Virus record (IMG/VR): IMGVR_UViG_3300037258_001202
Coordinates: 1 to 38,718 of that record
Reading direction: 5' to 3' (one strand)
Source of the DNA: a virus
Length of the DNA stretch: 38,718 bases
The notes beneath the pieces were generated by a model that worked only from the letters and a program-made list of their open reading frames with translations, was not told the origin of the DNA and ran no database searches. A program made the position numbers and the translations under genes. Positions 2,000 to 30,040 of the stretch are shown piece after piece; the stretch's first letter is position 1, and each line of letters opens with the position of its first letter.

Positions 2000-2079
2000 C
2001 GTCCTTACGGGCAACGGCAATTTCCCCGCCTGGACGGCGCGAGGGGCATAAGATGGTCTTGTTTCAACGGAGGCAAACC

Positions 2080-7807: not shown

Positions 7808-7832
7808 GTGTTTAGTTCTTCCCGCGGCTCCG

Positions 7833-8447: not shown

Positions 8448-8466
8448 GCTGCGGCCCCCCCCGGAT

Positions 8467-8525: not shown

Positions 8526-8548
8526 TGAGGCTAGAGCCGGATCAGCCT

Positions 8549-8560
8549 GTTACGGGTATC
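8549..8560 (+). promoter_or_regulatory. Dyad GTTACGGGTATC, copy 1
   Basis: One of four exact copies of this 12-mer in the window. It is an imperfect palindrome, GTTAC-GG-GTATC, with four of five half-site positions matching. It lies in the gap between the divergent adaptor gene (-) and the membrane-protein gene (+). It is probably an operator; the binding protein is unknown. Confidence 0.7.
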
Positions 8561-8585
8561 CTTGCGCGGTAACCCTTTCGTGCGG

Positions 8586-8614
8586 TTGCCTTGTGTAGCG
8601 CAGTGAGCTACATT
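8586..8614 (+). promoter_or_regulatory. Sigma70-type promoter with overlapping 19-bp operator
   Basis: -35 TTGCCT (8586-8591), 17-bp spacer, -10 TACATT (8609-8614). The palindrome TGTAGCGCAGTGAGCTACA (8594-8612) covers spacer and -10; its arms match at 8 of 9 positions. The predicted transcript start is about 8621, which is the ATG itself, so the mRNA would be leaderless. The promoter at 33879-33907 has the same geometry and the same operator. Confidence 0.7.
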
Positions 8615-8620
8615 GGGGGC

Positions 8621-8956
8621 ATGCAAATCATCAGGCGGTACCCGTTCGTCGGAATTTCGCTCGCGGTCGCCTGCGGGCTGGTGCTGGCGCACGTCGTCAA
8701 CGAAGCGCTGGATTACCTCTGGCTCAACTTCCTTTGGGATTTCCTAGCTCAGAATGGCTGGATGCTGGGCGACCTGGCCGCCGCGGCAGGCGTGCTTTAT
8801 CTCGTCCTCCGGCGCCGGCGCGGCATCCTGGCGTGGGCCCGCGGTCACATGAGATGGATCGCGGTCGGCGTCTTTTCTTTTTGGGCGATTTGTTCCCTGC
8901 TGATTCTTCTCAACGCCCATCGCTTCGTCGCCATGACGCCGCTACCTGCGCGCTGA
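8621..8956 (+). CDS. Three-TM membrane protein, moron-like
   Basis: 111 residues. Three hydrophobic segments are visible: VGISLAVACGLVLAHVVNEA (about 10-30), WMLGDLAAAAGVLYLVL (47-63) and WIAVGVFSFWAICSLLILL (79-97), the last two separated by the basic loop RRRRGILAWARGHMR. No family is recognised. It is a single plus-strand gene inserted between two leftward late genes, with its own promoter and operator, the pattern of a lysogenic-conversion (moron) gene such as a superinfection-exclusion protein; that role is inference. Its last 15 bases overlap the end of the convergent giant gene. ATG 8621 is chosen because earlier in-frame codons lie inside the promoter. Confidence 0.72.
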   Translation: MQIIRRYPFVGISLAVACGLVLAHVVNEALDYLWLNFLWDFLAQNGWMLGDLAAAAGVLYLVLRRRRGILAWARGHMRWIAVGVFSFWAICSLLILLNAHRFVAMTPLPAR

Positions 8957-11900
8957 CCCCGCCACCGCATCCCACACGTTCGGGCTCTCGACGTTGCCTC
9001 TCTGCACCTGGTTCATGTAGCGCAGCGGCTTCATCGCCTGCGTCGTTCCCGGCAGGCCGGCCAGGTCGCCGCCTACTTCGAGATAGTTCAGGCCGATCCC
9101 CTTCCAGTCCTTGTCGTCGCTCCCGCTCATCATTTCCTGCGTCGCCTTGGTCCCTTTGCTGAGCACGTTCATCAGCGGGTTCTTCACCTCGCCGTCGCTC
9201 TCGAGGGCCGATGCCGCGTCCCGCAGCCCGGGCACGGTGTCCGCGGCGAACAAGAGCGCGCGCTTCGCTGCCCACAGCCCCTTGTTCTCGCCATCCTTCG
9301 GGCCGTTCCCGCTGACGATGCCGCCCAGCAGCGCCGGCGCAAGCACGGAGAGCGCGAGCCCGTAGCTGAGCTTGCCGACCGCGCTCGGGCTGCCGGCGCC
9401 GCCGTTCTGCCTGAACTGGTGGCCGATGTCGCGCACCTGGCCGTAGATCCCGTTGTGAAACGAATAGAACATCGTCATCAGCTTGGTCAGATCGTTGTTG
9501 CGCATGATCGGCGGCAGGTCTTTCGGCGCGGCCGAGCCCAGGCCCAGGCGCACCGCGCTGTCGGCCGCGTGCATCGCCAGGTTCTGCGCCTGGTCCTCGG
9601 TCAGGCCTGCGTGCTCCTTGAGCCCGTCGCGGTAGACGGAAAGCCACAAAGGGAAACTCAGAACGTGATCGGTGTACTTGATCGACACATTGCCGAGCCG
9701 CGCCACGCTGCGCTTGATGCCGGGGTCGCCCCGGAGCACCGCGCGAATGTCGCGATCGAGGTTGTCGCCGCGCGCCGCCATCTCGTTCGGGGACAGGTCT
9801 TTGATCTGCTGCGTCATCTCGGAAGGGTGCGCCATGAAGTCCACCAGCGCCTGCGCGTACGATCCCGGGTTCGTGCTCAGCAGCATGCGCGGCGCGTGGG
9901 TCCACTGCAGCAGCGAAGTCGATATCTTGTACGAGAGCGTGGCCAGCGTCAGGTTGGTGCGCAGCGACCGCATCATCCGCGAGAAGTCGCCGAGCCCCTG
10001 CACCGCGCTGCCGTTGCGGTCGTTGACAATCGTGCGCAGCCATGGCATCATCTTCTCCTCGTAGCCCTCCCCCAAACTCTGGCGCATGGTCGAGCGAATC
10101 TGCGGATCGAGCAGCAGCTTGTTGGCCGCCAGCATGAACTCGCGGTGCGTGATGTCCTTGATCACCTTCGCCGTGTGCTGGGTCAAAACTTGTTCATAAT
10201 CGAGCTGCAGCGGTCCGCCGAATCCGGTGCGGGCCTGCATGTTGCCCCGCGAGGTGGCGGCGCGGCCGTAGCCGGCTTCCATCAGGTTTTGCGCGGTCGT
10301 GCCGGCGTCCTGCTGCGCGCCGCGGCTCCCGTAGCGCGGGTCCATCACGATCGGGTAGTAGCCGCCGTCCAGGTGCATCTTGGTCCCGTCCTGGAGCACC
10401 AGGTCGAGCGGGGTCGGCTTGACCATCACCGGCGGCAGCCCGGTGAGCCGCCGTTCGAGATCGGATTGCGCCTGGCCCAGCGGCTTCAGCGCGTTCCATC
10501 CGTCCTGCACAAACTGCCACTCTTCGCGCGTCAGCATCCCCGCGATCCGGTGGATTGCGTCCGGGTCCCAGCCATGCGCGGCGAACGTCTTCTGAAGTCG
10601 ATCGAGGTTGCCGTCGTTGCCCATGTTGAAGGCCATCGACACCAGGTCGTGCCGCGTGACCGTCTCGGGGATTCCGTCCACCGTGGTCTTCTCGAACATC
10701 TTCGCGCGCTGCTCTTTGGGCAGGTTCTCGATCGCGTCGCCGAGCTGCTCGGTGACCTGCTCCTGCAGCTTGTACTCGTTGCCCTGGGAATCGGCGGCGA
10801 GGTTCCACAAGTTGTCATGCCACGGACCCGTCTTGCCGCCATCCAGCCACTCGATCAGGCGTTCGGTGCGCATCAGCAGCGCATCGCCGCGCTGCGCGTA
10901 GTCCGCGATCTTCTCGCCCAGCGTCGCATTGCCTTTCAGCACCCGCGTCGGCTTGGCCGGCAGCGACTCGTGGGCCTGCGCCTCCATGTTCGCGATCGCG
11001 GCCGAGAACTCGACCCGCTTGCCGTTCACTTCCATGCCCAGCTCGAGCGACGCCAGCTTTCGGATGTTGATCAGCGCGTCATGCACCGCGCGGATCTCCG
11101 CGACCGGCGCGTTGCGGTAGTTGACCGTGCGCGCTTCGTTCAAAATGCCCGCATCGATCGCCGGCTCTTTGCCCTGCTCGTACTCGCTCGCCGCCCATTC
11201 GCCGAGCGATCTTTCGCCGGGCGCAACCTGGGGCCCCAGCCCGTACCGGCCCAGGATGCGGTTGAACTGGTCGCGGTAGTCTCCGCCGGCCAGGCCCAGC
11301 TTCTGCTGCGCGGCCGTTTTCTGCATCCGCTTCGCATAGGCCTCGAATTTGCCGATGTACTGCCTGGCCTCGGTCGCCTCGCGAAACAGGAAGTGATTCA
11401 TCAGCTCTTTGTGCTTCGCGTTCGCCGCGGCCTGCGCATCTCCCTTTTGGAGCGCCTCGAAGGCCTCGCGCGAGTACTTGCGGCTGGCGTCGAGATAGCG
11501 CGTCGGCTGCAGGTCGGCCACGGATTTCTTTTCAACCATCTGCTGCGCGGCTTCCCGGTAGCTCGCGATCGGCGCCACTTCAATCGCGCGCAGCGCTTCC
11601 CGCTCGCCGGTCATGCCGGAGACCTTCTGCTTCAGTGCCATCAGCTCCGCGTGCAGCCCTTTGGCCCGGTTGTCGTTTTCGAGGGCGATCCGCGCCTGGT
11701 CGTCGAGCGTGCCGTCGTAGCGGATGTCGCCATGCTTGGCCGTCATGTAGCCGCGGGTCGCCGTTTCAATGGCTGCGCTCCGCCGCGGCGCCACTTCGAG
11801 CGCCCGCATCATCTCTTCGGCCGAGTGGAAGCCGAACACCTCGGCCACGATCTCCGGGTCTTCGCCGCCCTCGTTGCGGTAGAGCCCGGGATGCAGTCTC

Positions 11901-14900
11901 TGCAGCTCCTTCACGCGCTCTTCGCCAAACTGCTTGGCCAGGTCCTCGCGGCTCAGGGTCAGCTCCGTGCCGTCGTCGAGCGCGCCCCTGCGCAGCGCGC
12001 GGATCGCCGAGTACTCCGGCCGCTGGTCCACGTCGGCCGTCACCGCCTCGCGCACGTTTTGTTCTTCGTTGCGCCAGGATTCCGATCGCGCGCGCACCGC
12101 GGCCTCGTTGAGCCGGCCCAGGATGTCGCTCTTGGCCTGCTCCACGGACATGTTGTTGTCGCTGGCGTATTTTTGGAACTGCTCGTCCGTCCAGCCGGCG
12201 TCTTCCGCGCTCGTGAACAGCTTCGGCCCGGCTTCCGTCTCCGCCCGGTTGACGCCGTCCTCGGCCGCATACAGCCGGTCGAAAACCCCGCGTATCTCGT
12301 CGGAGAGATTGACGCCCAGGTCGGAGGCCTTTTTGTAGACGCTGCCCAGCCAGATGGCGAAGCGCTGGAACGCGCCCTTGAGCCCGGCCGAGGGAGCTTT
12401 GCCCTCGCGCAGGTATTGCTCGTTGGCGCGCGCCCAGGTCTCCTGCTGCTCGCGCGTCAGCGGCTCCCCATCCTTCGCGCCGAGGAAGTCGAGCACTTTT
12501 TGGTAATCGCTTTTGAGGGTGTCGCTGGCGCCGTCGCGCTTGCTCAGGTCGCCGAGGATCTTCAAGTAAGCGTGAGCCGGCTCATGGACGAACGTGCTCA
12601 GGTCGCCAATCTTGGTCTTGCCAATTTCGTAGGTGCCGTCAGGAAGAACGCGGAACCAGCCGCGCGGGCCGTCTTCGGAGGACTGGTTTAGACTCGCGCC
12701 TGCTTGGCCGCCGTGTGCCGCGTTTTGATCGGAGCTTCGAGGTACGCCTTCATTACCTTGCGCGTCTGCTCCTGCCGAGGTGTCGGGGGCTTTGGCTGCT
12801 GCTTCTTCGAGGCCATCGTGATACTCCTGTTCTGACAGCTTACTCCCAAAAGCGTGGTTGAACGCATCGAAAGCGTTCGCCTCGCCAAACATTCTTCCTT
12901 GCCCGGGCAGGTTTGCATCCGAGTCGCGGGCGAACTCGTCGAATGACTTCCGCACGTCGTTCGGTTTGGCGTCCAGGGCGCGGATCATCGCGTCGACGAG
13001 CGGGTTGCGTTCGCCGTCGAACATCGAAGTTTGGCCCAGGCGCAAATCGACGGTGCTGCCGCTGCGCTGGATCGCTCCCAGCTCTCCAACCGCATCGCGG
13101 ATAGCCGGGAGCAGGTTCCACTCGTCAGGCCGCGATGCGAAGGACGCGATCGAACCAAGCGACCGCTCCAGCTTATTGATAACGGATTTCGGCGCGGAGT
13201 CCATCAGCCGCGGGTCGTCGATCACGCTTCCCATCAGAGCCCGTTCGACGAATGTCTTGCCTTCCTCGCTCAGGCCTCCGGAGGCCGCGTCGACGAACTG
13301 AGGCCGCTCGCGATCGGTGATCACACCGTCAGAGGTAAGCATTTTCACGATGCCGGCGCCGTGCTTGGCCATCGCCTCGCGCAGCGTGGAGTCGTCGGCC
13401 TGCATCATGCCGGCTATATTGCGGAGCGTGTCCTGCTTGAGGTTTTTCCCTGCGCTGACCGCGCGCTCGGAGACTCCCATCGCGCCGGTCATCGACTTAT
13501 TGAGTTCCGATCCAAGCCGCCGCGCGTCGTCCGGGGTCGCCGGCGTCTCTACCTGCCGGACCAGGACGGGCTTTTTCATGGCCTCGACCTGTTCCGGCGT
13601 GAATCCGTAAGTGGCAGCTTGCTCCTTCAGCGCCGCTTTGTAGGCCGATCCATCCTTCTCGTACAGCCGCTGCGTGCTCATGGCGCGGGAATTGCCGCCG
13701 AGCACAGTTCCATCGGGGGTCACGACCGGGGGGCCGTTCACCGCGTCGGGGTTGGTGTTCACCGTGTAGCGCGGATCGTAATTCTGCGCCTGCTGAATCA
13801 CGCGCGCCTGGGCTTCCTTCGACGTGTCGTAGGCGCGCTCCTGCAATCCTTCCGGGTAGGCCGGGTTTTTGGCGAAGGTGTGCGCATCGTGCGACGGCAC
13901 CAGGGAATCGGCCTCGACCAGCCGGTACTTTGCCGGAAGCTCGCGCGCCGAGGTCAGCAGCGTCGTCGCCTTTCCGTCGTGCCCGGTGAGGGCGCCGCTC
14001 ACCTCGGTGATCTCATTGCCAAAATGGACTTTCTTACCGCCCTCCCATAGCTCGACGGGGACGAGGCCCAAAGATGGCGAGGATTGGACGCCGACCACAG
14101 TCCTTTTTTCGAACTTGCCCGCATCCTTTCCTTCCTCGTATCTGACGCCCACCCTGCCGGCGTCCACGGCGGAGATGCTTTTGCTGCCGGCGCCGCGCGT
14201 CTGAAACTCGCCCAGCTTGTTTGCGTCCTCAGGGGTGACGTAGAAGGTTCGTTCCGAGGTTGGCTGAGGGCCTTGCTCCGCGCCTCCATGCTCCGGCCGG
14301 AACGCCTTATCCCTGGTCGTGGTTCCGTCTTCGTTTACTTTGTAAACGCTGCCTTTCGCCGTCGTGAACTCCGGAGCCTTGAACTCGATTGGGTTGGCCG
14401 CTGTATTGACATGTGCAGACATGTCATTACCGCCGGTCTCCGGCGCCTCCCCCACCGTCACCTTCGGGTTGTAGAGGTTCAGCAGCTCGCTCGGCTTCAT
14501 GCCGGCGTTGCGCGCCAGGTTCGAGTAGGCGTTCGCGTCCTTGGTGGCCAGCGTCTCGGCTACCTCGGGTGTCTCGCCGGCGTCGGTGTACCGCTGCCGG
14601 ATCTGCTCCTTCACTTCCTGGTATTCGGGCGTTGCCGCCGTCTCCGCGTCCGCCGCGGCCGTATCGGCCGCCAGCTTCGCCGCGCCGCCGCCTGTAGCCC
14701 ATTGCTCCAGCTCCTGGAGGCCTTCCTGGTGCTGCCGTGCCGTCAGCCCGGTGGATGGATCCACAATGTCGCCGAGCAGCGCCTTCTGGTGCTCAGGGTC
14801 GAGCTTCGACAGGAAGTCGGCCGGCGGGATCTCCACGTCGCCGCCCGACAGGTGCGCTTCGGCATAGTTGGCCGCGCCGAGGCCGGCAGCGACGGCGCCC

Positions 14901-18357: not shown

Positions 18358-18360
18358 CTT

Positions 18361-19077
18361 CTATCCTCCGCCCGCGTAGTAGCCGTACATCATCTTGGCC
18401 TGCTGGCTGGTGTTCCACTGCTGGCCCACGCTCGCGGCCGTCGTCAGCAGGCTTGAAGTCATCGCCGAAAACGGGCTGATCGAATTCGCGGACCGGGTCG
18501 CGTTGGCCGCCGAGGTGCGGTCCAGGAGAGCTTGATTGGAAAAGTTGGTGGCCTGCGTCCGGTCCTGGGCCGCGGCGCGCGTCGCGTTCGCGTCGATGGT
18601 GTAGGCGTTGATGTCCTTCACGATGTTCTGCGACGCGGTGATGTCCTGCGCGCTGCCCTGGCCGAGCCGGATGCCGTGCGCCGCCATGGTCGCCGTGGTC
18701 GAGGCCGTCGCCTGGCCGGCCGCCATGGTCATGTTGGCGATCTGGCTCTTGCCCGCCTCCAAAGTCGATTGCGCCGAGTACTCGGCCGAGCGGGAATTGA
18801 TCGCCGCGATGTCCGCCTGGTAGCCGAGGTTCAGCGCCTGGCTCTTGTCCTGGTACCGCTGGCTCTCCGCCGCATAGTAGCCGCCGACCGCGGAGTTGAT
18901 GCCGCCCATCACGGTCATCATCATGCCGGCGTTGCGCATGGTCGCGGCGCCGGTCGCGGCGCTCACCTGGCCCGCGCTCATGTTCGGGGTCAGGGTCGCG
19001 GTCGTGTGGCCGTTGATGCCGAAGAACTCCTGGATGCCGTCCCAGCTGCTGGTCAGAAGTGTGTTGATCTCGTCCAT
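18361..19077 (-). CDS. T7 gp14-like internal virion protein
   Basis: 238 residues. A small-residue hydrophobic stretch (MRNAGMMMTVMGGINSAVGGYYAA, about 47-70) is followed by a long alanine/glutamine helix (SQRYQDKSQALNLGYQADIAAINSRSAEYSAQ..., ...AGQATASTTATMAAHGI). This is the layout of the smallest T7-type core protein (gp14), which forms the outer-membrane part of the ejection channel. The order (tail tube B, gp14-like, gp15-like, gp16-like) supports the call. The ATG lies two bases after the TAG that ends the readthrough frame of the tail tube gene, showing that translation up to that TAG was originally linked to this gene. Confidence 0.72.
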   Translation of the reverse strand: MDEINTLLTSSWDGIQEFFGINGHTTATLTPNMSAGQVSAATGAATMRNAGMMMTVMGGINSAVGGYYAAESQRYQDKSQALNLGYQADIAAINSRSAEYSAQSTLEAGKSQIANMTMAAGQATASTTATMAAHGIRLGQGSAQDITASQNIVKDINAYTIDANATRAAAQDRTQATNFSNQALLDRTSAANATRSANSISPFSAMTSSLLTTAASVGQQWNTSQQAKMMYGYYAGGG

Positions 19078-19079
19078 CG

Positions 19080-22130: not shown

Positions 22131-22133
22131 GGT

Positions 22134-22814
22134 CTACCTGCCCGCCATCCACGACACGCTCTGGCGCACCTCGATGCGCCGCTGGTTCGCATCCGAAGTC
22201 TTGGCCTGCACGTTGAACGTCTGAAACTTGGTGAGCATCGCAGCCGACACCGTCGTGCCCTCGTCGCCCTTGATGATCGGCCCCGCCAGCATCGAGGCCA
22301 GCAGGTACGAGAGCGCCAGCACAAACAGCGGGCTGAAGGTGGTGGGGTCGGCGGCCGCGATGGTGTAGCGCAGCACCGCGTTGCACACGTTGGTGAGGAT
22401 GATCTGGTGGCCGTTGCCGTCCTGCTCGACCGAGTAGGGCTGGGGCATGTAGAAATTCGCGGCCGGATTCGCGAAGTCCGGCTGCGGCGAATCCCACTGG
22501 CGCCTTTCGCCGAAGTTCGCGGAGTAGTCGTCGAGCGCGCACTCGGGCAGCACCGAGATCAGGTTGATCACATTGGCCGGGTAGGCATAGGCGAACCGCC
22601 AGCTCGTGCTTGGGTTCGAGACTTCCGCCGGCGACGAGCGCACGGTCGCAAATCCCCAGTTGGCCATCTCCAGGATGGCGTTCAGCGCGAGCGGGAAGAA
22701 TGTTGCGCAGTAGCCGGCCTGCACCGATCCGTCGGGCGGGTCGATCGAGGTCACGTTGGCCGTATCCCCGATGTGCGAGAGTGCGGTGTTACAGATATCG
22801 ACAACCGAGGCCAT
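22134..22814 (-). CDS. Tail tubular protein A (T7 gp11-like)
   Basis: 226 residues. It opens with SVVDICNTALSHIGDTANVTSIDPPDGSVQAG, the family signature, followed by LALNAILEMANWGFATVR, WRFAYAYPANVINLISVLPE, and VLRYTIAAADPTTFSPLFVLALSYLLASMLAGPIIKGDEG. This protein forms the adaptor ring between portal and nozzle. The ATG at 22814 has GGAGAGGG upstream and is preferred over an in-frame ATG ten codons earlier that lies in the terminator region. It directly precedes the tail tube B gene. Confidence 0.88.
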   Translation of the reverse strand: MASVVDICNTALSHIGDTANVTSIDPPDGSVQAGYCATFFPLALNAILEMANWGFATVRSSPAEVSNPSTSWRFAYAYPANVINLISVLPECALDDYSANFGERRQWDSPQPDFANPAANFYMPQPYSVEQDGNGHQIILTNVCNAVLRYTIAAADPTTFSPLFVLALSYLLASMLAGPIIKGDEGTTVSAAMLTKFQTFNVQAKTSDANQRRIEVRQSVSWMAGR

Positions 22815-22834
22815 GGTCCCTCTCCGGGGTGGTG

Positions 22835-22871
22835 AAAAAAACAAAGGGCCGGAGCTGGTTGGCTTCGGCCC
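22835..22871 (-). terminator. Intrinsic terminator after the capsid module
   Basis: On the minus strand, GGGCCGAAG (22871-22863) pairs with CTCCGGCCC (22854-22846) at 8 of 9 positions. It is followed by TTTGTTTTTTT. It lies between the 56-residue gene and tail tube A, so it would reduce tail transcription relative to capsid transcription. Confidence 0.85.
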
Positions 22872-22892
22872 CCTGGTCTATCGGCTCGGAGG

Positions 22893-23063
22893 TTAGGCCC
22901 TCTTCGCAGGTTTCTGTTGCCGGCTCGCGGGCTCGCTTTTTTCGCGCGGCTCCGTTTCCTCGACCGGCACGATGTGCTCGTAAAGAGGGCCGGAGTGTTC
23001 AAACTCCTCGCCCTCTTCGCGCAGCTCCGTGTCGAAATGCTTGCAAAGCGAACGCACCAGCAT
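22893..23063 (-). CDS. Small acidic 56-residue phage protein
   Basis: Reads MLVRSLCKHFDTELREEGEE and continues FEHSGPLYEHIVPVEETEPR with a basic tail ending in KPAKRA. It is highly charged: acidic centre, lysine/arginine end, no membrane segment. Short proteins of this style often lie between the cement/capsid genes and the tail genes of such phages, but I know no function. TAGGAG lies before the ATG at 23063 with good spacing. The stop is TAA, immediately followed by the intrinsic terminator at 22835-22871, so it closes the capsid transcription unit. Confidence 0.65.
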   Translation of the reverse strand: MLVRSLCKHFDTELREEGEEFEHSGPLYEHIVPVEETEPREKSEPASRQQKPAKRA

Positions 23064-23072
23064 CGGCTACTC

Positions 23073-23516
23073 CTAGGCGACCGCGAAGCCGCTCGGACGC
23101 GAGATGTTGTACTGGATCGTGTTCGAGATGTAGCTGTCGATTGCGCCGGCAGTCACGTTGGCCGTCGCGACCCTGATGATGGTGCGCCAGTACCGCTGCG
23201 TGCCGGTCGGAGGCTGCACCTGGAGCAAGGTCTGCCCGGCCGTGACGGCCGTAGCGGTCAGCTTTGTGCCGGCCACCACGTCGGTCCACGTCGCGTTATC
23301 CGGGGCCGATTGCAGCACCGCCTGCACGGTCGCGGTGGCTCCCGCGAAAACTGTGTTGCAGAACACATTCACCCAGAGGTTCTCGCTGGTTTGAGCAGCC
23401 TCGTCGGCGTTAACCGAGCCGGTGTCGTAGACGTTGGTGCTCGGGTTGTCGCCGATGTTGAAGGCGGCCGTGGACTGCGCGGCCGAGAATACGAGTTCTG
23501 AATCGAGCATTGGCAT
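23073..23516 (-). CDS. Bbp16-family capsid cement protein
   Basis: 147 residues. It starts MPMLDSELVFSAAQSTAAFN and continues with beta-rich sequence (STNVYDTGSVNADEA, NLWVNVFCNTVFAGATATVQAVLQSAPDNATW, QRYWRTIIRVATANVTAGAI). Bbp16-type proteins decorate the outside of the capsid and stabilise it. The length and position directly after the major capsid gene support the call. The ATG at 23516 follows AGGAG and a strong hairpin at 23530-23555. Confidence 0.75.
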   Translation of the reverse strand: MPMLDSELVFSAAQSTAAFNIGDNPSTNVYDTGSVNADEAAQTSENLWVNVFCNTVFAGATATVQAVLQSAPDNATWTDVVAGTKLTATAVTAGQTLLQVQPPTGTQRYWRTIIRVATANVTAGAIDSYISNTIQYNISRPSGFAVA

Positions 23517-23529
23517 TTTTTGTTCTCCT

Positions 23530-23555
23530 GCGAGGGCCCGTTGCCGGGCCCTCGC
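23530..23555. repeat. Perfect 11-bp hairpin between capsid and cement genes
   Basis: Arms GCGAGGGCCCG (23530-23540) and CGGGCCCTCGC (23545-23555) flank the loop TTGC. In transcription direction (minus) it is followed by AGGAGAAC and an A-run, not T-rich, so it is unlikely to terminate. It may protect the capsid mRNA or tune cement translation. Confidence 0.7.
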
Positions 23556-23597
23556 CGTTAAGGATTCTGTCGCCTGCGGTGAGCTGACCAGGCCGCG

Positions 23598-24662
23598 TTA
23601 GCTGATCTGTGACTCGGTCGCGAGGATCTGGTCGACGGTCAACACCGGGACGCCCATGAACATGAGCTGGCCGCCCTGGATGCCGGTGCCGCTGCCCGCT
23701 ACCGAGCCTGCGCTGACCTTGCCGTACTGGTTGACCGCGTCGGTGAAGCTGAGAGCGTTCTGCGACTTGTCCAGCGCGCCGATCGAGAGCATCTCCTTGA
23801 CCGTGCGGCTGGCCAGGAAGGTCGGCGTGCCCATGCCCATCGAGGGAATGCGCGCGAGAGCCTTGATCATCAGCTTGTTGATCCAGGTGGATGCGGTGAT
23901 GGCCTGGGTGCCGGTCTGCCCGACCAGGTCCGCGGTCAGGATGTTGGCGATGCGGACCGCGTAGCGCCAGTCCTTCACGTGGAGGCCGTACTTCCACTGC
24001 CAGCGTTCTGCGTAGGCGCGGAAGCGGTTGTTCGAGCTGTCGAAGGCATCGATCTCGCCCAGGTCCTGCTGCAGCAGGCCCGCCTGGGAGCCCTTGGGGT
24101 AGATGCCGGTCACGGTGTTCTCGCCCCAGACGACCAACCAAACCGAGGTGTTGGTCGCGCCCGTGCCGCCGGCGTCGATGATGTTCTGCCCGGAGGTCGC
24201 GCTCTTCGAGCTGTAGCGCGGCGCCAGGCCCAGGATGCCGTCCTTTTGCGAGGCCGTGTTCCCGTAGACGACCGATTGCGCGAACTGCTCGTTCATCGCT
24301 TCGATGAACGCGAGGCCTTCGGAAAGCCGGAAAGCAGCGGTGTTCCCGTTCAGGTCGGCGAGGTCCTTGTCGATTTCGTTGCGGCCTTCGAGGATCGCGC
24401 ACACGTCTTCGATGGTGGCGCGGCCGGACTTTGAAATCTGGACGCCCTTGTAGAACTCGCGGAAGCCTACGGTGGGAAGGCCGACGCGCACCACGGCCTT
24501 GTGGCCGGTGGGCAGGTTGCCTTCGATGAAGTTCATGTAGGGAATCAGCTCGTTGCTCTGGTTGAGAAGCTCGGCGACCACGGCTACCTTGCCGTCGGGG
24601 CCGAAGCTCTTTGCGATGTCGATGAGGGTGTTGTGCCCGGAATTCAGGGGGAGGACTGCCAT
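23598..24662 (-). CDS. Major capsid protein, gp7-like (HK97 fold)
   Basis: 354 residues. The opening (LNSGHNTLIDIAKSFGPDGK, VAELLNQSNELIPYMNFIEGN, GHKAVVRVGLPTVGFREFYKGV) and the middle (EDVCAILEGRNEIDKDLADL, QSVVYGNTASQKDGILGLAPRY, RFRAYAERWQWKYGLHVKDWRYAVRIANI) match the gp7-type major capsid proteins of podoviruses such as BPP-1 relatives. It forms the icosahedral shell. It lies directly after the scaffold gene, with AAGGAG upstream of its ATG, and before the cement gene. The protein is complete and shows no anomaly. Confidence 0.88.
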   Translation of the reverse strand: MAVLPLNSGHNTLIDIAKSFGPDGKVAVVAELLNQSNELIPYMNFIEGNLPTGHKAVVRVGLPTVGFREFYKGVQISKSGRATIEDVCAILEGRNEIDKDLADLNGNTAAFRLSEGLAFIEAMNEQFAQSVVYGNTASQKDGILGLAPRYSSKSATSGQNIIDAGGTGATNTSVWLVVWGENTVTGIYPKGSQAGLLQQDLGEIDAFDSSNNRFRAYAERWQWKYGLHVKDWRYAVRIANILTADLVGQTGTQAITASTWINKLMIKALARIPSMGMGTPTFLASRTVKEMLSIGALDKSQNALSFTDAVNQYGKVSAGSVAGSGTGIQGGQLMFMGVPVLTVDQILATESQIS

Positions 24663-24675
24663 GGCTTGTTACTCC

Positions 24676-25368
24676 TTAAGTGGTTTTGTCGTACAGGACC
24701 GCCGTGGCTTTGGCCTGGCTCGCAGATGGGCCGGACCCTCCAACAAACGAATCCTCACTGAGCGCTTTACCTGTCTTGAACATCAGCCGAATCATCTCCG
24801 GGTGATTTCCAAGTCCGGTCGAGACCAGCAACTTGTTCAGCTCGGGCGTCCCGAAGGTATCGAGCGCCTTCTTGGCGATTCCCAGGCTGACTGCGAGCTT
24901 GTCGCCGCCGAAGTCTTTGTCGGACTTCGCGGCCTCGACCCAGCCGTTACGAACCGCTGCCACCTGCTCGGCCTGGCGCTCCTGAAACTTCGGATACATC
25001 CGGTCGAGCAGCTTCTGTGCCGCGTCCTGGGGCAGGTTCGCTTCCTTGGCTCCGGCCTCAAACGCCTCGACGAGGTTCGCGTCGTACTCCTTGCCTTCCG
25101 GAGTCTTGAACTCGTACTTGTCGGGTGCGCCTAACGCCGCCTTTGCATCGGCTGCCGCCTTCGCGTCGGCCGCGGCCTGGGCGTCGGTGGCGGCCTGGGC
25201 ATCGGCTGCTGCCTTGGCCTGGGCGTCGGCTTTGCCTGCTTCAGGTGCTGCTGCTTGGTCTGCTGTTGCGGCGGGGGCCTCTGCGCCTAAGAGCACAGCG
25301 GCGACCGCCTCCGGCGAGGCTGCGGCTTCAGTTTGGATTGGTGCCGTTACCGTCGCTTCTACTGACAT
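24676..25368 (-). CDS. Capsid scaffolding protein
   Basis: 230 residues. The N-terminal third is low-complexity alanine rich with a repeated A-D-A-(Q/K)-A-A pattern (residues about 48-80), forming a flexible helix. The conserved part begins DKYEFKTPEGKEYDANLVEAFEAGAKEANLPQDAAQKLLDRMYPKF and runs through WVEAAKSDKDFGGDKLAVSLGIAKKALDTFG to HPEMIRLMFKTGKALSEDSF, typical of podovirus head scaffolds. It directs assembly of the procapsid and leaves before or during packaging. The start at 25368 overlaps the Bbp19-like gene by 41 bp. Confidence 0.85.
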   Translation of the reverse strand: MSVEATVTAPIQTEAAASPEAVAAVLLGAEAPAATADQAAAPEAGKADAQAKAAADAQAATDAQAAADAKAAADAKAALGAPDKYEFKTPEGKEYDANLVEAFEAGAKEANLPQDAAQKLLDRMYPKFQERQAEQVAAVRNGWVEAAKSDKDFGGDKLAVSLGIAKKALDTFGTPELNKLLVSTGLGNHPEMIRLMFKTGKALSEDSFVGGSGPSASQAKATAVLYDKTT

Positions 25369-25684
25369 CGTTCGACTCCTTCAACATCACCGCGTACAAC
25401 TCAGGGGTTGCTCTGTTGATCAGGTCCAGGATGCGGTTCCCGTAGTTTCGATTGCCCTCGTTGAACGCCATCTGCATCGCGTTGGTGTTGAACGAGAGCT
25501 GGAAAACACCGGCCTTTTCGAGGAGCCGCCACAGCATCCTGCGGCCGCGCTTGGAGCCCATCAACCACTTCACGTCCAGCTCTTCCACTTCAGCGGCCAG
25601 CCGCATGCGGGTCGCTTTGTCTGCCCGGTCAGCTTCCTGCCCCTTGAGGTCGGTTGGATCGTAGGGGTGCACAGTTGCGATCAT
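25328..25684 (-). CDS. Bbp19-family phage protein
   Basis: 118 residues. The hallmark block is LDVKWLMGSKRGRRMLWRLLEKAGVFQLSFN followed by MAFNEGNRNYGNRILDLI and a C-terminal LYAVML. Bbp19-like proteins are found next to scaffold genes of BPP-1-like phages; their role is unknown. The ATG at 25684 lies 17 bp from a copy of the phage dyad. Its 3' end overlaps the scaffold gene by 41 bp, an unusually long overlap for this genome, so the scaffold start could lie slightly downstream of the one given. Confidence 0.75.
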   Translation of the reverse strand: MIATVHPYDPTDLKGQEADRADKATRMRLAAEVEELDVKWLMGSKRGRRMLWRLLEKAGVFQLSFNTNAMQMAFNEGNRNYGNRILDLINRATPELYAVMLKESNDVSRSDGNGTNPN

Positions 25685-25700
25685 GCCGCCAGCCGAACCT

Positions 25701-25712
25701 GTTACGGGTATC
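25701..25712 (+). promoter_or_regulatory. Dyad GTTACGGGTATC, copy 2
   Basis: Second exact copy, in the 43-bp gap between the divergent Bbp19-like gene (-) and the small cysteine-rich gene (+). A -10-like TACAAT at 25716-25721 follows on the plus strand; 7 nt further is the ATG at 25728. No convincing -35 is seen, so the dyad may hold an activator or repressor. Confidence 0.65.
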
Positions 25713-25727
25713 GCTTACAATCCAGGC

Positions 25728-25943
25728 ATGGAAGCGACGGTCATCGTCCACTGGCCCGGCAAAGACACGGCCGCCTGCGATCGGCACAGGCTGCAGCTGC
25801 AAGGTCTGGCTTCGCATCTGGGTTTTCAATTGAGCGAGACGCCCTGCGATCCGGAGCTCGAGTGCACGAACTGCCAAAAGGACAACGGCGCGCTCGTCAC
25901 CGTCGCGCTGATCAGCAGCTTCAGCCGCTACGACTTGTCGTAG
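25728..25943 (+). CDS. Small cysteine-containing protein, moron-like
   Basis: 71 residues: MEATVIVHWPGKDTAACDRH, then a leucine-rich part (LQLQGLASHLGFQ) and PCDPELECTNCQKDNGALVTV. Four cysteines lie at residues 17, 40, 46 and 49; C46-x-x-C49 with the others could bind a metal. The fold looks like a short alpha/beta protein. It is a plus-strand gene between leftward structural genes, with the phage dyad 15 bp upstream of the ATG and probably no leader in its mRNA. Its last 16 bases overlap the convergent staple gene. Function is unknown. Confidence 0.62.
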   Translation: MEATVIVHWPGKDTAACDRHRLQLQGLASHLGFQLSETPCDPELECTNCQKDNGALVTVALISSFSRYDLS

Positions 25944-26242
25944 AGGGCCTTGGCGGTCTTGCTCGATCCGCCGCTCACTTCCATGTCGGTGATCTGCAGC
26001 CCCACGCTGCTCTCCGAGTCGCCCACCATCGTCTGGTAGCCGCTCTTCGAGGCCACCGTCGCTTTGGCGCTGATGGTGACTTCGTCGCCCACGTTCACGC
26101 TGTCGCCGATGCCGAGCTTTGCGAGCGCGTCGTCGTCGAGGTTGATCGAAAGGCCGTAGGGGTAGCGCGGGCTTTCATCTGTCGAAGGCGAGCACTGCTC
26201 TTTCGCCTCTTCCTTGCTCATCTTCATGCTGACCATCGCCAT
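25928..26242 (-). CDS. Capsid staple protein
   Basis: 104 residues. The pattern SKEEAKEQ... then YPYGLSINLDDDALAKLGIGDSVNVGDEVTISAKATVASKSGYQT, and finally VGLQITDMEV, matches the capsid staple family found next to portal and scaffold genes of podoviruses. These small beta proteins clamp neighbouring capsomers from outside. The ATG at 26242 is preceded by GGAGG. The gene follows the portal gene after an 88-bp gap and its 3' end touches the convergent small plus-strand gene. Confidence 0.78.
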   Translation of the reverse strand: MAMVSMKMSKEEAKEQCSPSTDESPRYPYGLSINLDDDALAKLGIGDSVNVGDEVTISAKATVASKSGYQTMVGDSESSVGLQITDMEVSGGSSKTAKALYDKS

Positions 26243-26330
26243 GCTGCCTCCGCTGATGCCTAGACCGAACTACTGTACAAATGTGCAGTGCCTTCCACGC
26301 GCGCAGCGCGTCGAGCACGGCGCGAAGCGC
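26243..26330. other. Gap between portal and staple genes with a 16-bp dyad
   Basis: The gap holds CTGTACAAATGTGCAG (26273-26288), whose six-base arms match at five positions, in an AT-richer patch. A GGCGC/GCGCC mini-hairpin lies beside the portal stop. No gene is visible. Confidence 0.4.
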
Positions 26331-28031
26331 CTAGACCTCGGCCGCCGAGGGCGAACCGTAGCCGCTGAATTGATTCATCATGTCCTGCAGGCCGTTCGAC
26401 TGGCCGCCCTGCGTTGGCGCCTGCGCCAGGTTCTTCGCCGTCTGCGACTGCTGCTGCATGGCCGCGGCCTGCGCCTGCGCCGCCTGCGCCTTGGCCCGCG
26501 CCTGGCGGATCGCCGCGACCTGGTCCGGCGCCACAATCAGCTTCGGGTCCACGCCCAGCATGTCCGAGTAGGTTTCGGCCCACTGGTCCGGATCGAAGTT
26601 GTCGAGCACTTCCGGCTTCATCGCCGCGACCGCGCCCATCGAGCTCGTGAAGCGGTCGATGGAGTTGGTCCCGATCGCTCGCTGCGCCTGCGCCAGGATG
26701 CCGATCAGTTCCACGTTGAGCGATTGCCCCTGCATGTCGGGCGGCGCCGGCGGTACCAGGCCCGCTTCCTGCATGTGCGTGAACGTGGTCTGGATCAGCG
26801 GATACAACAATTCGTTGCTCAGCCGTTCGAGCACCGGCCCGATCATCAGCATCTTCTCTTCGTGCCGCTCGGCCACTTCGGTCGCGGTCATCTGCGGGTT
26901 GGTGTTGTTGTCGAGCATCATGAACATGTCGGCGAAAAATGCGGCGTTGATGCGCCCGCGGCAGTCGCGAATGTCTTCGAGCAGGTCCTCCAGGTCCAGC
27001 TCCACGTCGAACGCGCTTTTGATCGCCGCGCCGCCGGCGCCGGGGTCCACGTAGGTGATGCCGCCCGGCATCCGGTTCACTTCCAGGTTTTTTTGCGAAG
27101 TCGGAACCTGCAGCGGCGGATTGCTCATGTAGTCGATCGCATTCGCTTTCCTGAGCTGCTCGTGCTGTAGCTGCTTCACGTCGCCCAGCGCTTCCATGCC
27201 CGGCGAGTTGCCGTAGATGTCGCCGCCCTCGACATCCCAGCGCGGTACCACGGCCGGAAACTTCTTGAAGCCGCTCTCGCGCAGCAGCATGTTGGAATCG
27301 CCCGTCAGCTCGAAATAGATCGATTTCCAGGCCATGTTCTTCGCGTTCTTGATGGAGGGGTCGCGGTCGGCCCTCGGCTCGATCGCGTGGATCACGGGGA
27401 TCCACTGGTCGAGTCCCTTGCCGCCCTGGTAGAGGCTCTGCACCGTCTTCGAGCAGTTCTCGTAGCCAAACTCCTTGACCATCGCCGAGACCGTCATCTC
27501 GAACTCGCGATAGAGCGTGCACACGTTGCCCTGGGCGTCGGTTGCGATCGCATACTCGCCGATGGTCAAGGGGTAGTGGTGGATCACGTTCTCGAAGTCG
27601 GGCAGGATGATCGAGGCCGCGGTTCCGAACGCGCCCAGCTCCCCGTACATCTGGTGCAGCGCGCGGTAGGTGTTCGACTTCTGAAAGACGTGGTGCATGC
27701 GCTTCGATACATCGCTGAGCCAAAGCTTCACCGGCTGAAAGTCGTTCAGGTCGGGGTCGGGCGTGCCCAGGCGAAACCATGGCCGCGCCGGCGACGTCGC
27801 GCCGCCCATCAGCCCGGCGGCGAGAGTGCGCAGCGCGCGAATCCCGGTGTTGTCGTAGATGTTGTTGTTGCGCCGGTTGCCCTTGTCGCGGTCCTGGCGA
27901 AAGTAGCGGCCGCTGCGCGGCAGAATGTAGGTGGTGATTTCCTGCCAGTGCGTCCACCAGCTGGTGCGCTCGTTCTTGAGCTGGCCCCACCGCTGGATCG
28001 CCCGCAGGCGCATCTCGCTGTTGTTCGGCAT
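26331..28031 (-). CDS. Portal protein, head-tail connector family
   Basis: 566 residues. The N-terminus RLRAIQRWGQLKNERTSWWTHWQEITTYILPRSGRYF and LAAGLMGGATSPARPWFRL are characteristic of the podovirus head-tail connector family (PF12236). Other landmarks are YRALHQMYGELGAFGTAASIIL, GNSPGMEALGDVKQLQHEQLRKANAIDYMSNPPL, ITYVDPGAGGAAIKSAF and EVAERHEEKMLMIGPVLERLSNELLYPLI. The C-terminal part is a glutamine/alanine helix (ARAKAQAAQAQAAAMQQQ), the crown or barrel. It forms the dodecameric DNA gate and docks the terminase. The length is normal for the family. Confidence 0.93.
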   Translation of the reverse strand: MPNNSEMRLRAIQRWGQLKNERTSWWTHWQEITTYILPRSGRYFRQDRDKGNRRNNNIYDNTGIRALRTLAAGLMGGATSPARPWFRLGTPDPDLNDFQPVKLWLSDVSKRMHHVFQKSNTYRALHQMYGELGAFGTAASIILPDFENVIHHYPLTIGEYAIATDAQGNVCTLYREFEMTVSAMVKEFGYENCSKTVQSLYQGGKGLDQWIPVIHAIEPRADRDPSIKNAKNMAWKSIYFELTGDSNMLLRESGFKKFPAVVPRWDVEGGDIYGNSPGMEALGDVKQLQHEQLRKANAIDYMSNPPLQVPTSQKNLEVNRMPGGITYVDPGAGGAAIKSAFDVELDLEDLLEDIRDCRGRINAAFFADMFMMLDNNTNPQMTATEVAERHEEKMLMIGPVLERLSNELLYPLIQTTFTHMQEAGLVPPAPPDMQGQSLNVELIGILAQAQRAIGTNSIDRFTSSMGAVAAMKPEVLDNFDPDQWAETYSDMLGVDPKLIVAPDQVAAIRQARAKAQAAQAQAAAMQQQSQTAKNLAQAPTQGGQSNGLQDMMNQFSGYGSPSAAEV

Positions 28032-28046
28032 CCCGATCCCTTTTCT

Positions 28047-28400
28047 CTACGACCCCAGAAGCGTGCTCTTGCCCAGGCTCAGGCTGTTGTTGTTCACTCC
28101 CCCGGGCCCGGTCAGCATGGTCGAGCCGATGCCCACCTTCGAAGAGTTCGCGGCCTGCGACAGGATCGAGGCAATGTCCGGAGCCTGCTGGTTCGCGGCG
28201 TTGGCGGCCGTCTCGTTCTTGCGCTCGGTCGAGAGCGCGTTCGCCTCGGCCGTCTGCGTGGCCGTGGTCTGGCTCTTCAGCGCGGCCTTCTGGTTCTGGT
28301 TCGCCTTCGCTCCGTCGTATGCGGCGACGCCGGCGCCCACCGCGCCTACGCCGAGGCTGGCCAGCGCGATCGCCGTCGCTGCTGAAACGCTTCCTGCCAT
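28047..28400 (-). CDS. Small protein with N-terminal TM and TMLTGPGG motif
   Basis: 117 residues. A hydrophobic glycine/alanine stretch (IALASLGVGAVGAGVAAYDG, residues 11-30) is followed by a helical glutamine/threonine-rich region, and a conserved-looking end, STMLTGPGGVNNNSLSLGKSTLLGS. Proteins with this layout and ending stand next to portal genes in many podoviruses, but their role is not known to me. GGGAG precedes the ATG at 28400. It is probably co-transcribed with the portal gene 15 bp downstream. Confidence 0.65.
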   Translation of the reverse strand: MAGSVSAATAIALASLGVGAVGAGVAAYDGAKANQNQKAALKSQTTATQTAEANALSTERKNETAANAANQQAPDIASILSQAANSSKVGIGSTMLTGPGGVNNNSLSLGKSTLLGS

Positions 28401-28450
28401 ACGTCGCTCCCTTTCGCCGTGCGTGATCGCTCAAGCTCGGACAATTCGCA

Positions 28451-28708
28451 CTACTTCTGTTGCATGAGGCCTGCGGGCATCGGGAACCCGATGAACTCGA
28501 CATTGTCGAACGCGCCCGCCGGCAGGTTGGGGCTCGCGCTGTTCGGGTCGGCCGCCACGAAAGCGACATGCGCGTAGTGGCCGCAGCCGTCGTCGATCTC
28601 GCCCGTCCGGGTGAACGGGTTGTAGTTCACCAGGCACGGATAGCCGGCCGCATGTTTTTCCAGCTCCGCGTCGCTCGGGAAAATGACCAGCTTGTTGATG
28701 AGGCTCAT
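28451..28708 (-). CDS. Unrecognised 85-residue protein
   Basis: Begins MSLINKLVIFPSDAELEKHA and contains GYPCLVNYNPFTRTGEIDD, CGHYAHVAFVAADP and VEFIGFPMPAGLMQQK. Mixed alpha/beta composition, two cysteines, no membrane segment. The GGAG just before the cupin gene stop serves as ribosome-binding site for the ATG at 28708, so the two are coupled. It sits in a stretch of small accessory genes between the terminase and the portal. No function is assigned. Confidence 0.6.
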   Translation of the reverse strand: MSLINKLVIFPSDAELEKHAAGYPCLVNYNPFTRTGEIDDGCGHYAHVAFVAADPNSASPNLPAGAFDNVEFIGFPMPAGLMQQK

Positions 28709-28711
28709 GCG

Positions 28712-29176
28712 CTACTCCGCGGTGATCGTGACGGTGTCGCGGCTGCCATCCTTGCGAGACATCAGAAGGTCGGCGTCGGCGAATATCTCGTTTTCGGCCT
28801 CTTCGACGGTCTTCGCCTGCGTGGGGTAAATCATCGTCATCACCACCGCTCCACGGGTCACGAAGAGCTGCTTGCGGCCGGCCGATCCGGCGAAAACGTT
28901 GTAGCCTTCCACTTCGGTCCGTTCGTCTCCAACCAGCAGCGCCACTGAACCGGTGACGATGAGGACCGTTGCCCGCTTGATCAGGGCTCCCATCATCACG
29001 ATCCCCGCCTGGAGGCGGATTGTGCGGGCATACATCCCGCCGTGCAAAATGTGCTCCGTGGCAATCGGTACCTGCTCGACCGTAAGCATCGCCTCTTGTA
29101 CGGCCGCGAGCTTGTCGAGCGTCTCTTGGCTCGGCGGCAAAAGGGCCGCTGTGGCTGCCTGCAGGCCCGCGCTCAT
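28712..29176 (-). CDS. Cupin-like phage protein
   Basis: 154 residues. The beta-barrel part runs from PIATEHILHGGMYARTIRLQAG through MGALIKRATVLIVTGSVALLVGDERTEVEGYNVFAGSAGRKQLFV to VVMTMIYPTQAKTVEEAENEIF. This is a single-domain cupin pattern with a His in HILHGG and several glycine turns; metal ligands are incomplete, so enzymatic activity is doubtful. Related proteins occur next to a GNAT gene in many phages. The ATG at 29176 overlaps the GNAT stop (ATGA); an ATG two codons earlier is an alternative. Role unknown. Confidence 0.7.
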   Translation of the reverse strand: MSAGLQAATAALLPPSQETLDKLAAVQEAMLTVEQVPIATEHILHGGMYARTIRLQAGIVMMGALIKRATVLIVTGSVALLVGDERTEVEGYNVFAGSAGRKQLFVTRGAVVMTMIYPTQAKTVEEAENEIFADADLLMSRKDGSRDTVTITAE

Positions 29177-29622
29177 AGCCATTCCGTGAACACCGTGTGG
29201 CTGCGCTCGCATCCGGCGCGGCGCGAGAGCACCTTCTCGAGGCGGCTGCCGACCCGCGCGGTGTGGAGGATGCCCGGACACCCCCACTCGAACGCGTATT
29301 CCTTGGCGGCCGCCAATAAGGCGTTTCCCGCGCCTGAGCCGCGCTGCGAGGCCAGAACAAAGAAGCTTTCAACCGTGGCCACGCGCTTTCCGTTGTGCGG
29401 CATTGGGCTGTTCACCAACGACAGGAAGCCGACGAGCTCGTCGGCGACGTAGGCGCCGAAGCACTGCAGCGCGCCTGCTTGCTCCATCACCCCGTACATT
29501 TCGGCCTGGGGGTTTGGGTGGGGGACTGAGCACTCGGCGGCGTACTCGTCGATCAGCTGCTGCGCATTGCGCGCGCAGAGAATCGCCAGGTGACTGACCC
29601 GCCGTATGAAGGGTGCGCTCAT
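29173..29622 (-). CDS. GNAT-family N-acetyltransferase, second copy
   Basis: 149 residues. GNAT motifs: strand QCFGAYVADELVGFLSLV (residues 53-70), strand ATVESFFVLAS and the acetyl-CoA loop QRGSGAGNALLAAAKEYAFEWG, where Q-R-G-S-G-A is the binding turn. C-terminal GCERSHTVFTEWL is the usual closing strand. Genes of this type beside the cupin and portal region are frequent in podoviruses, but the target is unknown. A copy of the phage dyad lies 28 nt upstream of its ATG. It is unrelated in sequence to the GNAT at 1039-1446. Confidence 0.82.
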   Translation of the reverse strand: MSAPFIRRVSHLAILCARNAQQLIDEYAAECSVPHPNPQAEMYGVMEQAGALQCFGAYVADELVGFLSLVNSPMPHNGKRVATVESFFVLASQRGSGAGNALLAAAKEYAFEWGCPGILHTARVGSRLEKVLSRRAGCERSHTVFTEWL

Positions 29623-29649
29623 GCACAGAGCTTAGGGCGGGGTTTCTCC

Positions 29650-29661
29650 GTTACGGGTATC
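29650..29661 (+). promoter_or_regulatory. Dyad GTTACGGGTATC, copy 3
   Basis: Third exact copy. It overlaps the TGA of the 106-residue gene (29660-29662) and ends 28 nt before the ATG of the GNAT gene. Read on the minus strand it begins GATACCCGTAACGGA, and a GTGCATG start context follows at the same distance as in copy 4. Confidence 0.65.
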
Positions 29662-29980
29662 AGAGGCGTGGCGGCGGCGCGGTTTGTGGATCAGGCCCTG
29701 GGAAACCTCGCTCCGGCATTTCAACCACCGAGTACTCCGGCTTTTCGAGCGAAACTCTGACCGGCTGCAGCAGGGAGCCGAAGGTCAGCACCGTCAAGTA
29801 AATGTCAGCCCCAAAGAGAAGCGCGAGGCGCGCCCAGAAGTTTGGGCACCAGCGCGTCACGACGTCGCCATCGTCTGAACGCCGCGTCGGAAGCGGAAGG
29901 TATTGGCGTTGGTGCGTGGCGTAGGTGACGTCCTCCAGGAGCGGGATGTCGGGGTCGATCGGTGTAAGCGTCTTCTTCAT
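29660..29980 (-). CDS. Conserved-looking 106-residue protein
   Basis: Starts MKKTLTPIDPDIPLLEDVTY and runs ATHQRQYLPLPTRRSDDGDV, then WARLALLFGADIYLTVLTFG, and a proline-rich tail (GFPGPDPQTAPPPRL). The pattern of PLLEDVTY-THxRQYLPLP with a following RLALLFGxDxYxxxLTFG is familiar from small phage proteins, but the function is unknown. One moderately hydrophobic helix (ARLALLFGADIYLTVLTF) could associate with membrane. Its stop overlaps dyad copy 3 and its ATG lies 28 nt from dyad copy 4. Confidence 0.62.
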   Translation of the reverse strand: MKKTLTPIDPDIPLLEDVTYATHQRQYLPLPTRRSDDGDVVTRWCPNFWARLALLFGADIYLTVLTFGSLLQPVRVSLEKPEYSVVEMPERGFPGPDPQTAPPPRL

Positions 29981-30007
29981 GCACCAAGGTTGACGGACCC
30001 GCGGTCC

Positions 30008-30019
30008 GTTACGGGTATC
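30008..30019 (+). promoter_or_regulatory. Dyad GTTACGGGTATC, copy 4
   Basis: Fourth exact copy, in the 60-bp gap between the divergent starts at 29980 (-) and 30041 (+). A near-palindrome GACCCGCGGTC lies immediately before it. On the plus side an AGAGGTG ribosome-binding site at about 30028-30034 serves the ATG at 30041. Confidence 0.68.
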
Positions 30020-30040
30020 CTCGGCTAAGAGGTGCTCACA

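Follow-up and report, generated by a model that had tools for sequence, protein, structure and literature searches.

The late genes of a podophage related to Bordetella phage BPP-1 are interspersed with copies of a 12-base sequence, GATACCCGTAAC, which is probably the upstream half of a bipartite late promoter, its box being bound by a small helix-turn-helix (HTH) protein of the Bbp27 type that would turn on the late genes. The phage is represented by virus record IMGVR_UViG_3300037258_001202, which was analysed over its whole length of 38718 bases (65% GC) and is referred to below as the window. Judged by its genes it is a BPP-1-like podophage (Rauchvirus-type): the head protein, protease, tail and terminase genes are homologous to those of BPP-1 and stand in the same order. 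Nearly all of these genes lie on the minus strand, so that the 12-mer, which a preliminary description of this DNA had noticed in its plus-strand form, is to be read on the minus strand, towards the late genes. Comparison of many phages shows a bipartite architecture with fixed spacing, oriented with the late genes and placed at orthologous ones, and on the evidence of the genomes this two-part design, differently spelled, recurs across a large group of bacterial viruses.

Four exact plus-strand copies of GTTACGGGTATC begin at positions 8549, 25701, 29650 and 30008, all of them between called genes, as the preliminary description had reported. It had also pointed to weaker matches at 33394 and 2004, and both were accepted as genuine members because each has a −10-like hexamer of the form TAnnnT at a spacer of 15 bp. 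At all six window sites the box is followed by exactly 15 bases and then by a hexamer whose second base is A and whose sixth is T (nAnnnT, mostly TAnnnT). The six putative promoters are as follows.

33394..33405, minus strand: box GATGCCCGTAAG, −10 TAGCAT at 33373-33378; predicted late promoter of the terminase region
30008..30019, minus strand: box GATACCCGTAAC, −10-like CAACCT at 29987-29992; ATG at 29980, 6 nt after the hexamer
29650..29661, minus strand: box GATACCCGTAAC, −10 TAAGCT at 29629-29634; ATG of the GNAT gene at 29622, 6 nt on; the bbp24 site of BPP-1
25701..25712, minus strand: box GATACCCGTAAC, −10-like CATGAT at 25680-25685; GTG of the bbp19 homologue at 25672, 7 nt on; the bbp19 site of BPP-1
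8549..8560, minus strand: box GATACCCGTAAC, −10 TAGCCT at 8528-8533; predicted leadered promoter of the tail-fibre gene (7833-8447); the bbp9 site of BPP-1
2004..2015, minus strand: box GTTGCCCGTAAG, −10 TAGCCT at 1983-1988; upstream of gene 1443-1940

When the −10 element is set at −12 to −7, the box occupies about −39 to −28, the place of a −35 element, and it is unlike TTGACA; a search of the minus strand from 24500 to 34500 found no TTGACA-type promoter. Two hallmarks of an activator-dependent phage promoter, the want of a good sigma-70 −35 element and a constant distance from box to −10, were both found. The TAG of the hexamer at the 33394 site doubles as the stop codon of the HTH gene, and counterparts of this site lie at 28231 in record G002 and at 40172 in G007. 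The 106-amino-acid (aa) open reading frame (ORF) behind the 30008 site (29660-29980) is 62% identical over 90 aa to a sequence in G002. A further match with two mismatches at 22788, which the preliminary description did not name, was rejected as a member; it falls within the beginning of a tail gene, and no −10 accompanies it. Just past the terminase-region promoter, at 33340-33370 on the minus strand, stands TAACAATATGCGGTCTCGT, which recurs slightly changed in G002 and G007 and may encode a very short leader peptide.

Allowing up to two mismatches, the 12-mer has six forward and no reverse matches in the window, against one and two for a back-to-front control pattern. With up to three mismatches the 13 matches are no more than the 14.45 of shuffled sequences, so that weak matches are uninformative by similarity alone. 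The repeat itself is real, but the earlier statement that a given 12-mer is not expected even once by chance in this length overstated its rarity, since what has to be weighed is the chance of four occurrences of any 12-mer at all. Markov sequences of the window's length contain 0.05 (order 1), 0.12 (order 3) or 0.30 (order 5) 12-mers present at least four times, and the window has two, the second inside an in-gene tandem repeat. The case by rarity alone is moderate, and it is conservation, not rarity, that decides.

A head-protein search of viral contigs gave 39 loci, and 37 whole records were then searched for the 12-mer, which occurs within one mismatch in nine of them, at 17 places. Where their context was inspected, these places lie on the late strand and, a few exceptions aside, immediately upstream of late genes; 16 of the 17 have nAnnnT at spacer 15. 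The shared positions are the GNAT/bbp24 gene, bbp19, the terminase small subunit region, the tail fibre and the lysis end. In distant relatives the spelling of the box is specific to the lineage, and the 15-bp spacer is nearly constant. The boxes of relatives are as follows.

BPP-1: GGTGCCCGTGCC-N15-hexamer before bbp24, bbp19 and bbp9, and a weaker site before bbp26
G014 and G015: box TAGACCCATAAC, spacer 15 or 16
L030 and L034: box TGTATACATAAC, spacer 16
G020: box GGTGCCCGTACC
G036: box GGTGCGCGTATC
DC33: box GGTACCCGTATC
zth2: box GGTACCCGTAAC
MW202640: box GGTGCCCGTATC
G042: box GGTATCCGTATC
G047: box GGGAACCGTAAT
G039, a siphovirus-type phage with other capsid genes and a window-like HTH: GGTGCCCGTAAC-N15-TAGCCT
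SR18, a Caulobacter phage: GGTGCGCATGAT three times, before the terminase small subunit, bbp19 and a tail gene

The preliminary description had held that loss of the motif from relatives, or its random placement inside their genes, would count against it; in HTH-bearing relatives the motif is kept at gene starts, and in HTH-less ones it is lost as a set. Broader pattern searches were less productive. A pattern of two 12-mer copies at 330-360 bp had no match in viral contigs, and the 31 stretches that matched the bipartite pattern in genome contigs were spread over unrelated hosts and were judged to be chance. In viral contigs the bipartite pattern gave nine stretches, some from new relatives; L086 has a single match, and the match in L084, which lies inside a gene, was judged to be chance. 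One of the relatives listed above, Limnohabitans phage DC33 (PQ492659, L119), is filed under Inoviridae, yet has a BPP-1-like tailed-phage genome of 39 kb.

The association of box, hexamer and HTH gene was quantified in a panel of 28 whole records, namely the window, 12 of the 37 head-protein records picked by length, BPP-1, six phage records (among them Tr60_Ab31, added as an HTH-less member) and eight HTH-locus records; the partial or short records G001, G003 and G006 were left out of the counts. The number of HTH-bearing records is not a frequency, because those reached through the HTH search were chosen for the HTH. Clusters of at least three sites on the late strand, each consisting of the 12-mer with up to two mismatches, 14-16 bases and TAnnnT, were present in 12 of 13 HTH-bearing and none of seven HTH-less records when gene interiors were masked. 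With a profile from which the tested lineage had been left out, and with sites counted at 12 bits or more, 19 of the 21 HTH-bearing records in the panel had at least two late-strand sites, against 0/7 HTH-less records; the sites numbered 78 on the late and 15 on the opposite strand in the former, and one and none in the latter. The two exceptions were G039 (one site, 24 bits) and SR18. A search without any −10 assumption ranked the box first in 13 of the 21 HTH-bearing records and in none of the seven others.

Of 133 distinct late-strand boxes picked on the box sequence only, 74 have TAnnnT at spacer 15 and six at spacer 16, and no other spacer accounts for more than four; on the opposite strand TAnnnT stands at spacer 15 in 2/83. 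These counts are not fully independent, because the training boxes came partly from searches that required TAnnnT, and it is the 17 one-mismatch places that are independent.

Among the records compared, HTH gene and box also come and go together. On a capsid tree of 25 phages (G045, which has no matching capsid, G039 and G041 were left out) the HTH-plus-box label needs four changes, of which at least three are forced by well-supported branches, and the absences of box and HTH are interleaved. Record G009, whose capsid is 86% identical to that of the window, is without the HTH gene and the box set; BPP-1, at 41% capsid identity, has both. A two-site cluster is present on the HTH strand at 27 of the 32 HTH loci that have 7 kb or more of downstream sequence, and on the other strand at none of them. 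The TGTATACATAAC box of the L034 clade was seen on contigs without an HTH, and a longer relative, L222, encodes one (E 3.2e-24), as had been forecast. The siphovirus-type G039 combines HK97-type portal, protease and terminase genes with a window-like HTH and one strong site; its near-twins L126 and L128 were not counted. The earlier suggestion that these dispersed sites in one orientation look like binding sites of one regulator agrees with this picture, and of the binders then proposed the co-occurrence data favour the HTH protein encoded at 33376.

The candidate reader belongs to a family with invariant N, G, R, I, G, H, R and K positions, relatives of which are encoded in 403 of 445 candidate stretches in viral contigs (the best 80 of the 403 were kept). 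It has about 75 aa in its conserved part and one tri-helical HTH. The predicted fold is a strand, three helices and a strand (mean predicted local distance difference test score 81.8 in the best model, 60-66 in the other four), and it resembles gamma-delta resolvase (1gdt; Z 5.0, root-mean-square deviation [rmsd] 1.6 over 42 residues) and region 4 of sigma-E on its −35 element (2h27; rmsd 0.8 over 34 columns). Foldseek gave no match in the PDB at E 0.001, a sequence search of solved structures reached only E 0.032 at best, and two predicted viral proteins match the fold below E 0.001. Assignment of the fold to the resolvase, transposase or sigma-4 type was dropped, as all score alike. When 14 HTH proteins were compared with Pfam and PHROGs, in searches that included no alignment aimed at MotA, only generic HTH families were among the matches listed. 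PHROG 836 (late transcriptional activator), which we take to be the Mor/C family, matched two of the 14 (best E 0.0012, HTH part only), too weakly for kinship.

Several points weigh against an HTH-read late promoter. The HTH gene and the box could share one late-control cassette that is read by another protein. Some window hexamers are weak as −10 elements (CATGAT, CAACCT), the margins of the assumption-free search over shuffled sequences were often small, and the box did not rank first in the window. The HTH-less G009 has one good site (17.8 bits), and for incomplete contigs the absence of the HTH is uncertain. Five of the 32 HTH loci are without a two-site cluster, two of them in phages of the window clade, in which the bbp19 hexamers start with C or G, and three in the G039/G041 group. 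SR18 was missed by the blind searches, its hexamers (TAAAAA, GATACA and TAAATA) not being TAnnnT. Covariation at the level of residues did not hold either: L222 keeps the YERR motif yet has a CATAA box. This ended the idea of an arginine-to-G8 contact, under which loss of the YERR arginine went with a change from CCCGTAA to CCCATAA in G014 and G015 and which also fitted L017. A pairing of a recognition residue with box position 4 was likewise contradicted by L140.

In one alternative explanation the late promoters are as described and the box is read by another protein (an unrecognised phage factor, a host activator or an alternative sigma factor), the HTH gene being only a linked neighbour. 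Residue-level covariation could not be demonstrated, the family matches of the HTH are weak and generic, and the gene lies near the late genes, so that linkage alone could keep it and the box together. We nevertheless think this explanation unlikely. HTH and box were gained or lost together at least three to four times on the capsid tree, both are found in a siphovirus-type phage with other capsid genes, and the spelling of the box differs among phages. An alternative sigma factor in particular is opposed by a search for sigma-70 region 2 (PF04542), which was positive in 10 of 14 controls and in none of the 18 records searched.

The preliminary description had compared the repeats to the stoperators of mycobacteriophage L5, and a repressor, perhaps the HTH protein itself, could be imagined to silence the late genes, or divergent lone genes, in the lysogen. 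Stoperators of the L5 clade are indeed dispersed identical sites in one orientation to transcription, with a lineage-specific consensus that tracks the repressor (PMC6550527). At several boxes a lone opposite-strand gene also starts 15-40 bp away; the box contributes a TATCCT there, and its binding could shut that gene. However, most L5-clade stoperators are not associated with promoters and block elongation (PMC6550527), whereas every site in the window has, on the late strand and just before the start of a late gene, a −10-like hexamer at a fixed 15 bp and no TTGACA-type −35, as expected of an activator site. There are four to six sites per genome, at late-gene starts, and BPP-1 has separate annotated cI and Cro genes. 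The stoperator reading was rejected because of the fixed −10, and we regard it as improbable. The palindrome seen in the core fares no better: GATACCCGTAAC matches its own reverse complement at 8/12 positions, which is weak symmetry, and the BPP-1 box matches its own at only 6/12, so that the symmetry is not conserved.

It is common for lone opposite-strand genes (30041-30523 on the plus strand of the window, and genes in G002, G006, G007 and L082) to start 15-40 bp from a late-promoter box that has a Shine-Dalgarno-like stretch beside it. Read on their strand, the box and two further bases give TATCCT, and binding of the box might also control these genes. Three of the exact copies had been described as standing beside lone plus-strand genes. 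The gene at 30041-30523 is supported by homologues in four of the 16 records compared, but the plus-strand ORF 7713-8528 beside the 8549 site is probably antisense, because the minus-strand gene beneath it, 7833-8447, has homologues in 12 of the 16.

Short conserved boxes repeated at late genes are also what promoters of a T7-like polymerase look like, and such boxes are seen here. Promoters of a phage single-subunit RNA polymerase, with transcription starting right after the box, would leave the hexamer 15 bases downstream unexplained, and PF00940 was found in none of 18 records, although the control genomes gave no match either, so that absence of the polymerase is unproven; we consider this explanation very improbable. 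Chance repeats or ordinary mobile or recombination sequence, for which the Markov expectation of 0.05-0.3 leaves some room, have next to no standing, having been refuted by the conservation of position, orientation and spacing over phages whose capsids are about 40-90% identical to that of the window.

If the box is read by the Bbp27-type protein, host RNA polymerase would recognize the −10, and the protein would bind the box and supply the missing −35 contact. That it replaces this contact is the simplest model, because the late strand has no TTGACA-type promoter in the interval searched. Made together with early or replication genes, the HTH protein would then activate the late operon from four to six sites simultaneously. 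The genes concerned in the window are as follows.

33376..33717, minus strand: small HTH gene (Bbp27 family), the last gene before the late genes; candidate late activator
32237..32740, minus strand: terminase small subunit, counterpart of BPP-1 bbp26 by position only; first large gene past the HTH gene and a recombinase-like ORF
29173..29622, minus strand: GNAT acetyltransferase gene, bbp24 homologue; predicted to be leaderless
25328..25672, minus strand: bbp19 homologue (Pfam Phage_Bbp19); predicted to be leaderless from GTG 25672
7833..8447, minus strand: gene in the tail-fibre position, counterpart of BPP-1 bbp9, downstream of the 8549 site; BPP-1 is among the records with homologues

The distance from hexamer to gene suggests an unusual kind of message. 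Among 85 sites that have nAnnnT at spacer 15, the hexamer is followed by an ATG or GTG after 6 nt in 23 cases and after 7 nt in 17, other offsets being represented by at most six each; in the window this applies to the sites at 30008, 29650 and 25701. Transcription by sigma-70 polymerase usually starts some 7 nt past the −10, so that the start codon would be the 5′ end of the mRNA. The head-gene promoters thus predict leaderless late mRNAs, with transcription starting at, or directly beside, the first base (A or G) of the start codon. Several tail-region sites have leaders with AGGAG instead, and the tail and lysis promoters would give leadered mRNAs. At the 2004 site the −10 lies at the loop edge of a strong inverted repeat (about 1966-1999), an arrangement shared by counterparts in G002 (16220), G007 (6866), G039 and G041. 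The −10 of the bbp9 promoter of BPP-1 (6185) similarly lies in the loop of a terminator-like hairpin. Since T5 follows that repeat, termination there would be possible for a transcript arriving from upstream and impossible for one that starts in the loop. In BPP-1 (NC_005357, L046) the position of the promoter also suggests that bbp26 starts at ATG 26255, in frame and 63 nt inside the annotated start.

By analogy, the proposed switch would work like T4 MotA or Mu Mor, kinship with neither being claimed. At T4 middle promoters, a case of sigma appropriation by AsiA and MotA, a MotA box takes the place of the −35 element; it stands 12 ± 1 bp upstream of a sigma-70 −10 and is centred near −30 (PMC2988021). 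Here too a phage box stands in the −35 place, with a spacer of 15 bp and a centre at about −33. MotA consists of a five-helix activation domain and a double-wing DNA-binding domain (PMC2988021), whereas the candidate has about 75 aa and one tri-helical HTH and would serve late rather than middle genes. In phage Mu, whose activators are Mor (at Pm) and C (at the four late promoters lys, I, P and mom), the Mor site replaces the −35 element and, as proposed here, a small phage activator serves several late promoters (PMC4390567, PMC4461284). Mor recognizes a 16-bp element, centred at −43.5, through two inverted repeats of 5 bp each (PMC4390567), whereas in the boxes described here symmetry is not conserved. 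The modelled tri-helical fold is similar to the small folds of Hin/resolvase-type HTHs and of sigma region 4, and differs from both in family-wide conserved motifs outside the HTH, NExGxRIG at the N-terminus and RRAQTPxRWK at the C-terminus. The absence of region 2 from the records searched likewise sets the system apart from a sigma factor.

Other features of these genomes came to light. Between the HTH gene and the terminase small subunit gene lies a second tyrosine-recombinase-like ORF (32791-33339, minus strand; phrog integrase, E 6e-19) with homologues of 66-72% identity in G006, G007 and G009; the other integrase of the window phage is at 73-909. The plus strand encodes at 2158-2346 a small protein whose resemblance to the Thoeris anti-defence Tad2-like domain (PF11195) scores 24.8 bits, just below the cut-off of 25. 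Record G009 has, at about 30970-31490, a direct repeat offset by 448 bp, recognizable from two pairs of identical stretches.

Work on diversity-generating retroelements has BPP-1 as its model phage, and a search of the literature, largely without subscription papers, yielded no paper on how its late genes are turned on, on this promoter or on its Bbp27. Our analysis names putative promoters, predicted start sites and a candidate activator both for BPP-1 and for those members of a large environmental group that carry the HTH. A wider proposal, which we offer tentatively as possible rather than probable, is that these phages share a widespread and so far unnamed late switch, in which a stand-alone region-4-like HTH of about 75 residues would reprogram host RNA polymerase at −35, head-gene mRNAs would start exactly at their start codons and give synchronous leaderless late expression, and the box would in addition shut divergent lone genes, whose −10 it overlaps; box and reader would diversify together, and the module would move between podoviruses and siphoviruses. 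Translating whole head-gene operons from leaderless starts would be unusual among phages of proteobacteria, and the lineage-specific boxes, together with the small HTH proteins that go with them, would offer natural material for work on the evolution of promoter specificity.

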